Part shown: in pieces, positions 13,802 through 19,700 of the stretch
How the letters are laid out: the number at the start of each line of letters is the position of its first letter
Numbering within the stretch: the first letter of the stretch is position 1
Assembly: GCF_000827595.2 (NCBI RefSeq)
Contig: NZ_LN776183.1
Location: forward strand, 62,001-126,000
Source: Necropsobacter massiliensis
Lineage (GTDB): Bacteria > Pseudomonadota > Gammaproteobacteria > Enterobacterales > Pasteurellaceae
Direction: 5' to 3'
DNA length: 64,000 nucleotides
The notes under the pieces: model-generated
Databases searched by the model: none
Seen by the model: the letters and a program-made list of their open reading frames with translations, nothing else
Told to the model about the DNA's origin: nothing
Made by a program: the position numbers and the translations under genes

Positions 13802-15265
13802 TTAAAATTGCCACTCGACATTTAGTTGAATTTCATTCTGTTTATAGGAATACAGCCAGTCCACATTGCTCCGGTTGTCGGAATGTTTCAACCATAGGCT
13901 CGGCGTCATGCCGTAAAACTGCCATGTCGGCATTTTCAATATGACCAGATAAACCTGTTGATTATCCCGTCGAGTTTGGTTTAACGCTCCATTGAAGCCG
14001 CGGTAGTCATAACGGCGCAATAACGCCAGCAGAGTCGCATCCAGTCCGAACCCAAATTGCCGGTTGATGCCCGCGCGTAGCCCGTACAGATAATAATCAT
14101 CAGCCTTGTCTGCGGTGCGCCGATACTGTCCGTCAAGCCCGCCGAACAAGGTTGTTTGTTCGGCAACGGTGTAATACAAGGTCGTATAGAGCGCACTGAG
14201 ATCCGCCATGTGCAGTGCGTTATAGTGCGGTGAATATTGCAGTCTTTTTTGTTCCATTTGTACATTCAGCCAATGTTGCGTACCAATCCGGCGGTTCAGT
14301 GTGCCTTGTACGCCCCACGCCCGCGAATAAGTGCGGTTGCCTAGGCGATTATATTCAAACAAGGGCGTAAGGGTCAGTTCGGTTTTCATGTTCTGATAAC
14401 GATAGCCAAAATAAACTTTGCTGCTGTCTTCGGCATATTCTCCGGCATGCGGATAAAAATGACCGTAGCTGTTCAGATAAAAGTACATGCCGTGATGACC
14501 GGATAATGCCGTCTGTTTCTGTGCGCTGACCTCATAGCGCCAACCCTGCGCATCGGCGGCAGGTGGCGAGGTAAAGCGAGCGAAACAGTGATCGCCTTGG
14601 TTCAGTGTGCAAAAACTGCGTTCGGAGGACTGATTAATATTGGTGGCGTACTGGTACCCTAAGCTAAAAGCCAGCTGCCATTTTTGCCGTTGTGCCAGTG
14701 CCTGACGGTAGTCGTCGATATTGTACCGAACGCTATCCGGCAGCGGCAATCTCGCCAGTTGGTTAAAAAGTGCGGTGGATTCTCGGCTTTTTTTGTTTTC
14801 AAACAGCACGCGTGCCAGATCCAACTGAGCGCGGATAAAGCTCGGATCTGCCTGTAGCAGTTGACGATAGCGTTGTTCCGCCGTCTCCATGTCGCCTTTT
14901 TGGCGCGCCAGTGTAGCTTCAGCAAATAAAACCAATTCGGGGTGATGGGCCTTGAACGTTTGATAGTGCATAAGGAGTTTTTCCGCCTCAGTCCATAACT
15001 GCCGGTTTAAGGCGAAAAATAGCGCCTGCCCGACCGCTTCGGCATTATGCTCAATAATGACTGATTGACCGTCGAAATTGAGTTCATTTTCAGTTGCCGG
15101 TGCATCAATTGTTTGTTCGTCCACTCGGCTTTCTTGTTCTTGTTGCCGGCTTATCCGACTGTGCTGCTGCCAAAGCTGAACGGCATCATGATTATTGGGT
15201 GTTTGTGCCACGGTCAAGGTTGCCGTACAAGCGGTTATCAATAACGGCGGCAGGATGCGAAACAT
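13802..15265 (-). CDS. slam: Slam-type outer-membrane assembly/translocation protein (DUF560)
   Basis: Slams are outer-membrane proteins that move lipoproteins or soluble hemophores to the cell surface. The chosen ATG (15265) starts the signal peptide MFRILPPLLITACTATLTVAQ; an ATG 14 codons upstream (15307) is also possible. A periplasmic TPR region follows (EAEKLLMHYQTFKAHHPEL, DPSFIRAQLDLARVLFENKK), then from about residue 200 a beta-barrel of alternating strands ending in the outer-membrane signature NVEWQF. Mature length and domain order fit the DUF560 family. It is the last gene after the receptor and hemophore, so its client is most likely the adjacent hemophore. Its TAA stop shares its last A with a USS (13794-13802), and another USS lies inside (near 14768). 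Confidence 0.85.
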   Translation of the reverse strand: MFRILPPLLITACTATLTVAQTPNNHDAVQLWQQHSRISRQQEQESRVDEQTIDAPATENELNFDGQSVIIEHNAEAVGQALFFALNRQLWTEAEKLLMHYQTFKAHHPELVLFAEATLARQKGDMETAEQRYRQLLQADPSFIRAQLDLARVLFENKKSRESTALFNQLARLPLPDSVRYNIDDYRQALAQRQKWQLAFSLGYQYATNINQSSERSFCTLNQGDHCFARFTSPPAADAQGWRYEVSAQKQTALSGHHGMYFYLNSYGHFYPHAGEYAEDSSKVYFGYRYQNMKTELTLTPLFEYNRLGNRTYSRAWGVQGTLNRRIGTQHWLNVQMEQKRLQYSPHYNALHMADLSALYTTLYYTVAEQTTLFGGLDGQYRRTADKADDYYLYGLRAGINRQFGFGLDATLLALLRRYDYRGFNGALNQTRRDNQQVYLVILKMPTWQFYGMTPSLWLKHSDNRSNVDWLYSYKQNEIQLNVEWQF

Positions 15266-15330
15266 TGTGCCTGTTATGTGACGGCGATTAACATAAAAAG
15301 AAACCATAAATCTGCTGTTATAACTAATTG

Positions 15331-15359
15331 AAACAAAAAGGGGGGAGCGCGTTCCCCCG
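15331..15359 (-). terminator. Intra-operon terminator/attenuator between hemophore and slam
   Basis: On the minus strand a GC-rich stem GGGGGA/TCCCCC (6 bp, loop acgcgc) is followed by C and then TTTTTG. It lies 8 bases after the hemophore stop. It should stop part of the transcription, making the hemophore more abundant than its translocator. Confidence 0.75.
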
Positions 15360-15366
15360 AATATTA

Positions 15367-16155
15367 TTATTTTTTCGTGCCGCCGAATGCGGTGTCGTAT
15401 TGGTTATGTCCGGCGAATTTCGCATAACCGGCTAACGCCGCCGCATTATTACCGAAGAAATGACCTTGTGTGGTACCTGCTACGGTTTTATTCGCAACTG
15501 CAGCGCCTGAGAACGCATTACCGCTGATCTTCGCATCATTGATGCTCACCGTTAAGCCGGTTTTGCTCATTGAGCCGTTAACTTGTTTTTTGCCGAAATC
15601 GGCGGTCAGCTCGCCTTTTAGCATTTCAGCCCCCAACTTGCCGTGCTGATTAATGCCCTGCACGCTATACACGGCTTTTCCGCCGGTCGGCATGTTTTGT
15701 GTTTGGTTGTTACCGGCATAATATACCACCCGATCCTGCTTGGCATTGGCGCCGTTGCCCAGCCATTCACCGTAGTATAATTCCTGCGTGCCGACTTTTT
15801 TAAACGCAAAGTTGCCTAATTTGCCGTGGAAACCCGGCACCCAACTTGGAATGTTGTTCATGTTTAACACCACAACACCGTTTTTATCCTGCCCACCCAG
15901 TGATTTCGGCACCAGCACGTTATTAGCAACCTTGGTCAGTGATTGAAAGCTGGTAACTTTGGAGGTGACGCCTTGCACTTCAACACCAGGTAATCCGCCG
16001 GGATCGGAATGGAACCAGCCGTCGTGTTTAGCAGAAGGGTTTTTTACGCTCAACACAGCATTGTTATTGGATATGCCGGAGCTAATGTTGGCATTGGCGC
16101 TGAGTGTTATTGCGCAAGATAGGCAAAGTGCGGTGGCTAAAATGGATTTTTTCAT
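15367..16155 (-). CDS. hphA: Secreted hemophilin/HphA-like hemophore (Slam substrate)
   Basis: I start it at the ATG at 16155, which has AGGAGA upstream and begins the signal peptide MKKSILATALCLSCAITLSANA (cut expected after Ala22). The mature protein is about 240 residues. An N-terminal domain rich in Gly and Trp with several His (KHDGWFHSDPGG, VPGFHGKLG) is followed by a TbpB-like eight-strand barrel ending GHFFGNNAAALAGYAKFAG...AFGGTKK, the hallmark of Slam clients. There is no proper lipobox, so it should be released as a soluble protein, like hemophilin of Haemophilus haemolyticus and HphA of Acinetobacter. Heme binding is inferred from this resemblance and from its neighbours. A USS encodes Thr-Ala-Leu inside the signal peptide. 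Confidence 0.75.
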   Translation of the reverse strand: MKKSILATALCLSCAITLSANANISSGISNNNAVLSVKNPSAKHDGWFHSDPGGLPGVEVQGVTSKVTSFQSLTKVANNVLVPKSLGGQDKNGVVVLNMNNIPSWVPGFHGKLGNFAFKKVGTQELYYGEWLGNGANAKQDRVVYYAGNNQTQNMPTGGKAVYSVQGINQHGKLGAEMLKGELTADFGKKQVNGSMSKTGLTVSINDAKISGNAFSGAAVANKTVAGTTQGHFFGNNAAALAGYAKFAGHNQYDTAFGGTKK

Positions 16156-16298
16156 ATAAAATCTCCTAATTTTGTGAGGGCTTTCCTCATTGTAATCATT
16201 GCATACATCATGATGTATGCGCTGCAAGACAGCAAAATTCGGGTCAAGCGAGTGTTTTGCTGTCTTTTTTAAACAACGGAATTATGCCGTTCCATTGC
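16156..16298 (-). promoter_or_regulatory. Structured 143-base leader between receptor and hemophore genes
   Basis: On the minus strand four stem-loops follow one another: AACGG/CCGTT (16275-16291); a 12-bp stem aagacagcaaaa/ttttgctgtctt (16226-16237 with 16255-16266); a perfect 20-bp palindrome GCATACATCATGATGTATGC (16201-16220); and TGAGG/CCTCA (16175-16189) just before the ribosome-binding site. None has a U-tract in the coding direction, so they should not terminate. They could mark an RNA processing or stability element, or an operator for a dimeric regulator. Confidence 0.6.
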
Positions 16299-19200
16299 TT
16301 AAAATTTCGCCGTTAGACCTAGTTTAAAGGTTCTGCCCGGTGCCGGAATCATGGAACGGGTCATCGGATCCAGATAATAGCGATCAGTTAAATTGGTGCC
16401 GGTCAGTTCAATACTTAAATCTGGCGAAAAGGCATAGCGGATGTAAGCATCCACCACCAGTACCGGCTGCCATGACATCGGGCGATTCCAGTTCCAGAAC
16501 GTATTATTTTTATCAAGTCCCTGTTCATAGATCCGTTGTTCATCTTTATTCACCGCCTTGCTGTGGTACAGCCAGCGGCTGCCGATTTCCAGTTTGCGTT
16601 CAAAGAAACGGCCGCCGATATTGGCGCTGATCGAATATTTCGGTTGCAGCTGGGTACGCAGATAGCCCATCGGGAAACCGCCGGTCATACATTTCGGTAA
16701 GCGTAATTCAACAGGATCAAGTTCTACTGCGGTATTGGCATCACAAACTTTATTTTTTAAATGATATTCAAACCCCAGATCGGCAAAGTAGTCGCCGTTG
16801 TCATAACGAGCCTGCAATTCAATACCTTCCAACTTGCGTTTATCCAGCTGTATGAAACGGAACTCGGTATCCCGATCGATCACGTTTTTAGTAACATTGT
16901 GGTAGTAACTGAGTTTAATATCCGCTTTGGTGGGGGTGGCGAACCAGTGACCGAAATCGTATGCGTAGCCCAGTTCGATATTGCGTGCCTTTTCCGGTTT
17001 CAGTTTGGCATCTTTAAAGCGTGCTGAAGTTCCCGGGCTAGCAGAAAAACCGATAGTGGTTTCAAAGATGCTCGGCATGCGGGCATATTGCACATAGCGG
17101 AGATAAACGCGGGAATGGTCGGTTAAAAACGCGGTGGCGGAAAATGCCGGAGAAAAGGCATGACCGCGTTGTTTTTTCACTGATTTCAACAGTTCTTCTT
17201 TTTTTAGTTTTTCTTCAATTGGACCTGTTATTCTCTTTTGATATTTATATTCTGTTTTGCCGGTTTTGGGGTTTTTGACCAGTTCGTTTTTCAATGTACC
17301 GTTATAAAACGGATTGTCTTCTCGGTGTAGGCGTCCATCAGAATGATAACGCCATGATATTGCTTTATTCTCACTAACGATACCGTTTTCGCAGTGACCA
17401 AAACAATTCATTTTTAATAATGTATGTAATGCCTCGTTTCGTTTTTCTTCCGATGAGTTTAAATTATGAAAATCTGCATTGGCTTTAAGATAAGTATCCC
17501 ATTCTTTTTTGGAGAGTACTCTATCGTAGTTAATTTCTTGTCCTACAGTAATCGTATCTGTTGAAAGCTCACCGGAATTCAGGAGTTCCGCCAGATAATC
17601 ATCATAAGACCAGTATTCGTTGTAACGTCCGCCGGCGGTCAATGCCAGCCAGTCGGTTGGTCGGTAATGAAAATTGAGCGCGATGTCCCATTCCTGCCGG
17701 CGTCCGAGACGCGGCGGGGCTTCGTAGGTGGTAAAACCGTCGTTACGGTTTGATTTGCCCGGGTTAGAACTGGTTAAATGTTCGCGTTGCAGCGCGCCGG
17801 AAAAGGTGAGATCCAGTTTATCGGTCAGCTTCATCACATTGCTTAAATTCACCCCGCGGCGAGTGTTATGCGCCTGCATTTGTGCGCTGTTGACCAATGT
17901 ATATTTGCCCGTATTCGGATGTTGTCGCACAATCGGATCGCCGTTGCGGTGCAGACAGGCGTAATCGACAATCAGCACATCTCTGCCGGAATTCGCGCTT
18001 GTCCAGTCCTGCCGTTCTTGTACGCAGCTGCTTGTCATGGCAAACCATTGGTAAAATGCCGGATCCTGTAATATGGCTTTCGGATCATTAATTTCGCGTG
18101 GATTACCGCCCGAGGTGTTGGTCAGGCTATCGGTGCGGGTGTACCACAAGCCCAGTTTTAAATCGAGCCAGTCGTTATCCTCCGGATTGTAGGCATAATC
18201 AAAATTCAATGCGGATTGCTTAACAGTGGAAAGCGGCCATTGCGGAATAAACCCGTGAAAGCTACGGAAATCCAGACGAGAAGGCATAATTTCGCCGTAA
18301 GTGGTTTTAGTATGGCGATAGCCCAGCTTGATTTGCTGTGTTTTAGTCGGTCGCACTGTGGTTTTCAGCAAGTAAGATTCCATCAGACTGGACGTATTCG
18401 GTACTTCCGTATGCGGGCGGTATATGGTGGCGGCAAAGGGCAGATTCGGTTCCATTTGCTTAATGGAAATATCCGAGCCTTTGATATCAATGTCTCCTTC
18501 GTAATTATGTGCGCCGCCTTTGCCCGCTAAATAGTTGCCTTTGCTGCGATAGCTGTAGGCAGCCAGTAAATCAAATTTATCTTCTCTGAGCCCCACTGCC
18601 AGACGCATAGCATTGTCATGCCCCCACGAACCTTTGGTTTTCGGTTTGATGAGCGCATGCGGTGAGAAAAAACCTAAAATACATTGTCCGGTTTCACGGC
18701 AATCCTTACCGTTATCGAAATCAGGAATACGTTCTTTCACCGAATTATTGCTGGCTTCCAGTTTTAATTCGGCGCCGACCCGTTGTCCCGGCTTGAGAAT
18801 ATCGTCCACATCAATGGTGCGCATTTTAATTGCGCCGCCGATACCCGAAGCATTCCCGGAGGCGATATCCGGTCCTTTTTCCACGGTAATACCGGCGATT
18901 AGGTTCGGATCAAGATAGTTGCGGTTATTGGCGCCGTTATAGCCGCGCCAAGTGGTGATTGCCTGCTCTGTACCGTCGATGGTAACCGGAATTCGCCCTT
19001 CGCCTTGAATGCCGCGGATATTCGGATCCACCGCACCGCTGTTGCGCGCATCACCGCTGTAAACGCCGTTAAACCCCTGAAACAAATCCGCCGGTGTTGC
19101 GCCTTTATACCGCTCGACGGTTTCTTTATCGGCATACATATTGGTAATATTGCGCAAATAGACTTCGTCTTTGCGTTGTTCGTCTTGCTGTTCGCTGCTG

Positions 19201-19322
19201 CTTTTGACTTCAATGACGTCCAACTGATCTGAGCCTTTTTGGGCGTGACTTGTGGTATTGACCGCCACAAGCAAGGCAGTTAGTATCAGTTTTCGGTAGT
19301 TTTCGGTGTTTCTGAAGACCAT
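16299..19322 (-). CDS. hphR: TonB-dependent outer-membrane receptor, probably for hemophore/heme
   Basis: The 1007-residue protein has a signal peptide ending near SHAQ, a TonB-box-like DVIEVK, a plug domain (PADLFQGFNGVYSGDARNSG, PNIRGIQGEGRIPVTIDGT, ITVEKGPDIASGNASGIGG) and a 22-strand barrel ending GLTAKF with the usual terminal Phe. Between about residues 574 and 717 lies an AT-richer, Lys/Glu-rich segment with two Cys (MNCFGHCENG), probably a long surface loop. A Fur box precedes the gene. The next genes code for a Slam-type hemophore and its translocator, so I infer a receptor that strips heme from that hemophore. It could instead take hemoglobin or another heme carrier. It has no USS in 3 kb. 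Confidence 0.8.
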   Translation of the reverse strand: MVFRNTENYRKLILTALLVAVNTTSHAQKGSDQLDVIEVKSSSEQQDEQRKDEVYLRNITNMYADKETVERYKGATPADLFQGFNGVYSGDARNSGAVDPNIRGIQGEGRIPVTIDGTEQAITTWRGYNGANNRNYLDPNLIAGITVEKGPDIASGNASGIGGAIKMRTIDVDDILKPGQRVGAELKLEASNNSVKERIPDFDNGKDCRETGQCILGFFSPHALIKPKTKGSWGHDNAMRLAVGLREDKFDLLAAYSYRSKGNYLAGKGGAHNYEGDIDIKGSDISIKQMEPNLPFAATIYRPHTEVPNTSSLMESYLLKTTVRPTKTQQIKLGYRHTKTTYGEIMPSRLDFRSFHGFIPQWPLSTVKQSALNFDYAYNPEDNDWLDLKLGLWYTRTDSLTNTSGGNPREINDPKAILQDPAFYQWFAMTSSCVQERQDWTSANSGRDVLIVDYACLHRNGDPIVRQHPNTGKYTLVNSAQMQAHNTRRGVNLSNVMKLTDKLDLTFSGALQREHLTSSNPGKSNRNDGFTTYEAPPRLGRRQEWDIALNFHYRPTDWLALTAGGRYNEYWSYDDYLAELLNSGELSTDTITVGQEINYDRVLSKKEWDTYLKANADFHNLNSSEEKRNEALHTLLKMNCFGHCENGIVSENKAISWRYHSDGRLHREDNPFYNGTLKNELVKNPKTGKTEYKYQKRITGPIEEKLKKEELLKSVKKQRGHAFSPAFSATAFLTDHSRVYLRYVQYARMPSIFETTIGFSASPGTSARFKDAKLKPEKARNIELGYAYDFGHWFATPTKADIKLSYYHNVTKNVIDRDTEFRFIQLDKRKLEGIELQARYDNGDYFADLGFEYHLKNKVCDANTAVELDPVELRLPKCMTGGFPMGYLRTQLQPKYSISANIGGRFFERKLEIGSRWLYHSKAVNKDEQRIYEQGLDKNNTFWNWNRPMSWQPVLVVDAYIRYAFSPDLSIELTGTNLTDRYYLDPMTRSMIPAPGRTFKLGLTAKF

Positions 19323-19345: not shown

Positions 19346-19364
19346 GTAAATAATAATTATTCTC
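19346..19364 (-). promoter_or_regulatory. Fur box in front of the hemophore receptor gene
   Basis: On the minus strand GAGAATAATTATTATTTAC agrees with the 19-bp Fur consensus GATAATGATAATCATTATC at most positions and centres about 33 bp before the start codon. It would repress the cassette when iron is plentiful. The regulator gene fur is at 30959. Confidence 0.7.
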
Positions 19365-19700
19365 AATAAAAGCTAACAAAGCATAGTCAGAGAACTGAAA
19401 AAATTCAAGTACTGAAATAGGAGTAATTTTATTTTGTGATGAAACTCACACTCAGGCTAAATTCTGAACGGAATTGATTGGTGTCGCACACATTTTGCCG
19501 AATAGTATCGGAATTGGTTGATTTTTTGTGCTAAACATCACAAAAAATCAAATAGGCAAAGCACGTATTGGCGTGCTGAAATGGAGTAAAGCGGTAATCA
19601 AAGTGCGGTCAAATAATGGATCGTTTTTATGAATTATTCTGCCGCACAACAATTAGGATGCAATGAATTAACGGGCGGATAACGCACCGCCCGTGAAGTA
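19365..19700. other. Intergenic region between lldP and the receptor promoter
   Basis: It holds the upstream part of the receptor promoter, one USS (about 19602) and no gene that I can support. A hairpin ACGGGCGG/CCGCCCGT (19671-19694), 6 bases past the lldP stop, is a plausible lldP terminator, followed only by TTAATTCATT on the minus strand. Confidence 0.5.

Follow-up and report, generated by a model that had tools for sequence, protein, structure and literature searches.

The mRNA between the heme receptor gene and the hemophore gene of this locus carries four successive hairpins, SL1 to SL4, and the same four are found in the same order at the receptor-hemophore junction of 20 genomes from 9 genera. 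Since the order of the hairpins has been kept although their letters have almost wholly changed, this stretch of mRNA very probably does a job, as judged from sequence comparison. Most likely, it lets the receptor and hemophore genes be expressed at different levels.

The window (the whole stretch of DNA analysed, 64,000 nucleotides) contains a hemophore operon of the HphA-receptor-Slam type, with co-directional neighbours in the minus-strand order receptor, 143-nt gap, hemophore, Slam. Its features are as follows.

19346..19379, minus strand: probable operon promoter (TTGTTA-18-TATTAT), overlapped by a Fur-like box, 5' of the receptor
16299..19322, minus strand: TonB-dependent outer-membrane heme receptor (HphR-like), first gene (Pfam TonB_dep_Rec_b-barrel 2.6e-28, Plug 5.5e-11)
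16153..16167, minus strand: hemophore ribosome-binding site (AGGAG) and ATG, from the sequence; relatives keep a GGAG-type site
15367..16155, minus strand: secreted hemophore, HphA/hemophilin family (Pfam HphA_N 2.5e-22, HphA_C 3.3e-18)
15336..15358, minus strand: intrinsic terminator past the hemophore gene, GGGGGAACGCGCTCCCCC plus T-run, present in all loci that have the four hairpins
13802..15307, minus strand: Slam (surface lipoprotein assembly modifier), hemophore exporter (Pfam SlipAM 2.5e-51, TPR_Slam)

On the minus strand the receptor stop codon is at 16299, and the hemophore starts with the ATG at 16155-16153. The Fur-like box matches the Fur consensus at 14 of 19 positions, the best score in 64 sampled 400-nt windows being 13. 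The hemophore is 97% identical to that of Haemophilus massiliensis FF7 and 85% identical to that of Necropsobacter rosorum. Its reading frame is also open upstream (16156-16227) as far as a TTG at 16227, so that gene callers may annotate the start too early. The window is recognisable as Pasteurellaceae DNA, the uptake core AAGTGCGGT being present in 47 copies against 0.5 expected; one of these (16126-16134) falls within the part of the hemophore gene that encodes the signal peptide, where many relatives retain the complement, ACCGCACTT. A plasmid search gave no match.

The original prediction, of four successive stem-loops filling the gap, is borne out by inverted repeats and by folding, and the positions are correct. 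The stem sizes it gave are right for the 12-bp hairpin, the 20-bp palindrome and the 5-bp hairpin near the ribosome-binding site; the receptor-side hairpin, described as 5 bp, is really one of 15 bp. The four are listed here from the receptor side.

16267..16304, minus strand: SL1, 15-bp stem that takes in the receptor stop codon, with TTTTAA...TTTAAAA at its base (inverted repeat; conserved in 12 of 12 lineages)
16226..16266, minus strand: SL2, 12-bp stem (16226-16237 / 16255-16266) with a 17-nt loop, directly adjoining SL1 (inverted repeat)
16201..16220, minus strand: SL3, a perfect 20-bp palindrome in the window (inverted repeat; arm-swap control)
16175..16189, minus strand: SL4, 5- to 6-bp hairpin ending 7 nt upstream of the ribosome-binding site (folding)

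The arms of SL1 (16267-16281 / 16290-16304) include two G.U pairs in the window, and the final codons of the receptor gene, stop included, make up its base. Folding of the coding strand from 16130 to 16320 gives z = -5.2, with none of 200 dinucleotide shuffles as good, and the plus strand from 16150 to 16310 (z = -3.6) also folds better than every one of 200 such shuffles. Among 900 sampled 143-nt minus-strand windows of the 64 kb, the lowest z (-6.1) belongs to the one starting at 16189; windows of this kind around 5468 and 3835 fold nearly as unusually (z = -5.8 and -5.5). As had been claimed, none of the hairpins is a terminator in the coding direction: the gap has no U-tract and no minus-strand terminator site. 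A Rho-independent terminator in that direction is thus ruled out, the combination of GC-rich hairpin and U-tract being absent from the gap's minus strand. In several lineages, not including genus g30, SL4 (GGGGAA..UCCCC) resembles the terminator past hphA (GGGGGAA..UUCCCCC) closely enough for the arms of the two to cross-pair, the corresponding sites in the window being 16175-16189 and 15341-15358.

Of 140 Pasteurellaceae genomes, 27 have a relative of hphA (E<=1e-20), with receptor and Slam genes alongside in related loci. The four hairpins occur in the 20 genomes whose hemophore shares at least about 54% identity; below about 46% identity, hphA loci do not have the element. The two situations can occur together: genome G085 has two hphA systems (loci L039 and L058), one with the element and a divergent second hphA without it. 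Across the 20 genomes the receptor-hemophore gap measures 130-153 nt (181 in G086), with fold z-scores of -2.6 to -7.2. The G086 locus (L051, G086:C4:125135-125984) keeps all four hairpins, and its hphA lacks a ribosome-binding site and a signal-peptide start, so the gene looks decayed. The same junction can also be arranged in another way, as in a Neisseriaceae MAG (L062), where the receptor-hemophore gap holds a canonical terminator, AAACGCCAGCCC TTTG GGGCTGGCGTTTTT.

No consensus fold came out of a plain MAFFT alignment of all 18 sequences (A1), which was misaligned. A second alignment (A2) and hand segmentation were therefore used. By hand segmentation the order SL1-SL2-SL3-SL4 is present in 18 of 18 sequences from 9 genera, the linkers between them being 0-5, 5-11 and 8-14 nt long in that order. 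Alignment A2 is sequence-based, not fitted to structure except for a structure string named by hand, and leaves out the most divergent genus. In it, 84.8% of cells are paired and 18 of 30 pairs have changed on both sides, values that none of 500 shuffles reaches; sliding the partner by 1-3 columns lowers the pairing to 44-55%. Changes on both sides affect 7 of 12 pairs in SL2 and 4 of 6 in SL4. SL3 is not alignable by sequence, and for this hairpin an arm-swap control was used: its own duplexes average -9.9 kcal/mol and swapped ones -2.4 kcal/mol. In this control generally, the arms of each lineage pair far better together than with the arms of other lineages. The prediction had been made to depend on pairing being conserved in relatives, and the order, the covariation and the arm-swap control all strongly indicate that it is.

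The strand on which selection acts is indicated by SL1. When stems are counted symmetrically across 12 lineages, SL1 has 17 G.U and 0 A.C pairs, distributed over 8 of the 12, which implies that the selected molecule is the sense mRNA. The corresponding counts give no strand signal in SL2 (1 vs 2), SL3 (3 vs 2) or SL4 (0 vs 0). This bears on a reading of SL2 as the terminator of an antisense, plus-strand RNA, which would cover the hemophore ribosome-binding site or shield the receptor gene. On the plus strand SL2 is terminator-like: in the lineages examined a T-rich tract comes after it, and the energy predicted for it averages 3.3 kcal/mol better in the antisense than in the sense direction. 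However, the T-rich tract is the complement of the A-rich 3' arm of SL1, an arm that must in any case pair with the receptor-gene end TTTTAG, and this weakens the argument. Most of the energy difference comes from the A/C-rich loop, while the 12-bp stem has 2 antisense-only wobbles against 1 for sense. Such a terminator would also leave SL1, SL3 and SL4 unexplained, and we regard it as quite improbable. A fold-based G.U tally for SL2 of 20 vs 4 in favour of antisense was rejected, because it too arises mostly from the A/C-rich loop, the stem alone giving 2 vs 1.

The sense-RNA specificity of SL1 also counts against the suggestion that the gap holds an operator, that is, a DNA site such as the SL3 palindrome for a repressor of an internal promoter. 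SL3 is indeed a perfect 20-bp palindrome in the window, but apart from one close relative of the window species (L010) this perfection is not conserved: elsewhere SL3 is a looped hairpin of different sequence, with no palindrome and no shared sequence. The palindrome is unique in the genome, matching only its own site, and neither a sigma-70-like promoter on the coding strand nor a Fur-like site was found in the gap. This part of the prediction is thus largely disfavoured, and an operator here seems extremely unlikely.

When 140 Pasteurellaceae genomes are searched with a covariance model of the element (R1), 17 have a match at E<1e-6, in each case a single one located at the receptor-hemophore junction. 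Sixteen of the 17 are loci whose gaps, or near-identical ones, entered the model or the hand segmentation. Their recovery is therefore not the informative test; the absence of further copies is. Three further genomes, all from one genus and not used in building R1, give weak but in-register matches; six additional matches with E of 0.03-0.09 look like chance for a search of 140 genomes. Distant hphA loci, including the second copy in G085, have no R1 match. The single match per genome, always at the junction, and the lack of any at distant hphA loci point to a locus-specific cis element, not a repeat or a regulon-wide motif. A repeat or mobile element of the REP/BIME type was ruled out, the gap DNA being unique in the genome and the covariance model matching once per genome. 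Rfam gave no matches at the gathering score for the window and 12 related loci, the element being absent from Rfam 15. No RNA element at a receptor-hemophore junction was found described in the literature, as far as open-licence papers go, where absence is not proof.

The hairpins could act by translational or trans-acting control without cleavage, either as a binding platform (for CsrA, Hfq/ProQ or an sRNA) or by shaping a standby site for ribosomes and so setting hemophore translation. The distance of SL4 from the ribosome-binding site in the window fits this idea, as does the large loop of SL2 (about 13-18 nt). GGA is present in the 5' arm of SL4 in nearly all lineages, and usually in the ribosome-binding site too, as in CsrA targets; this GGA is however in a paired arm and not in a loop. 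Against it, the ribosome-binding site is only partly paired in models (unpaired 0.25-0.64), without a conserved helix; the loop sequences are not conserved, and with one element per genome there is no regulon-wide motif. Such control is, on balance, rather unlikely. A riboswitch-like RNA that senses heme or iron and controls hemophore expression would account for a conserved multi-stem structure immediately 5' of a single heme-uptake gene. A ligand pocket would, however, call for sequence conservation in a loop or junction, and there is none; the stems are simply in a row, and nothing in Rfam matches them. We consider this very unlikely. A search for conserved loop-loop or pseudoknot pairing found none, an extreme value for the SL2 loop with the SL4 loop being an artefact of duplexes that are unable to form.

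Our preferred reading, to which we give about an even chance on the present analysis, is that the gap is a papBA-like intercistronic element for processing and stabilisation, which would uncouple hemophore from receptor expression. It would be a cis-acting structured element of the receptor-hemophore mRNA. A single Fur-type promoter 5' of the receptor would drive a transcript spanning receptor and hemophore, and the terminator past hphA would limit read-through into slam. The transcript would be cut within the hairpins or in the linkers that separate them, with RNase E or RNase III as the probable nuclease. SL1 and SL2 would then protect the receptor fragment from 3'-5' exonucleases by capping its 3' end, while the hemophore mRNA would begin with SL3 and SL4 and, with its 3' terminator hairpin, become a stable short message. 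In this way the hemophore, which is secreted and lost, could be made in excess over the receptor. The original prediction had likewise suggested RNA processing as what sets the receptor:hemophore ratio, and this is plausible.

The terminator past hphA accompanies the element in every locus, so that the hemophore cistron is flanked by hairpins on both sides. From this, and from the known intercistronic hairpins that set ratios, we infer differential processing and stability, and with it the cleavage, the stabilisation and the direction of the ratio. No RNase E motif is conserved above chance in the linkers of 12 lineages: 5 of 12 have RN|WUU between SL3 and SL4 (p = 0.37), and 1 of 12 has it between SL2 and SL3. 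Codon adaptation (hemophore 0.551, receptor 0.544), an uninformative proxy, gives no sign of a higher hemophore level. Two further observations count against a processing element, namely that more distant hphA operons manage without the hairpins and that strand specificity is seen in SL1 alone. The receptor stop codon lies within SL1, which would therefore be melted by ribosomes completing the receptor. It is conceivable, though unlikely, that the array is an mRNA switch for hemophore production, responsive to a ligand or a protein, in which receptor translation gates refolding or cleavage and so feeds back on hemophore output.

We know of no hairpin array comparable to the present one in the hasR-hasAp operon of Pseudomonas aeruginosa. 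The proteins of that system are unrelated, but according to the article that cites the work, hasR-hasAp is under post-transcriptional control (Dent et al. 2019, cited in PMC12670364), and would be a precedent for such regulation in a receptor/hemophore operon. The closest parallel for the processing and stabilising element is papBA of E. coli, where RNase E cuts upstream of the hairpin at the 5' end of papA, the opposite end being shielded by a 3' terminator (PMC5927463); differential decay in E. coli is a further precedent (PMC5927463). Both systems have an upstream cistron separated by hairpins from a downstream one whose product is likely to be needed in larger amount, with a terminator hairpin past the downstream cistron (PMC5927463). 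The present element differs from papBA in having four hairpins, with the upstream stop codon built into the first, and in lacking a conserved RNase E motif; its cleavage is only proposed. Stem-loops that are not terminators and have no U-tract are known to set subunit or cistron ratios (PMC4423207, PMC5927463). The present hairpins, stable and intercistronic with no U-tract in the coding direction, are in this respect like malE-malF, other 3'-protective structures and the SRPS stem-loops of cip-cel in C. cellulolyticum (PMC4423207, PMC5927463). In malE-malF and cip-cel it is the upstream cistron that is stabilised, whereas here either cistron may gain. The element described here is also single-copy and locus-specific.

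The proteins belong to the same families as HphA/HphR/Slam (HsmA) of Acinetobacter baumannii and hemophilin of Haemophilus haemolyticus, and the gene order receptor-hemophore-Slam is common to the related loci examined. The A. baumannii HphA paper mentions no RNA element, the words 'transcript', 'intergenic' and 'mRNA' not occurring in its text.

Heme uptake by secreted hemophores matters in the colonisation of animals and humans, and the mechanism by which more hemophore than receptor is made from one operon has been little studied. A strongly covarying RNA element, present in at least 9 genera and new to Rfam, lies at exactly the receptor-hemophore junction, which makes the question of the expression ratio directly testable.
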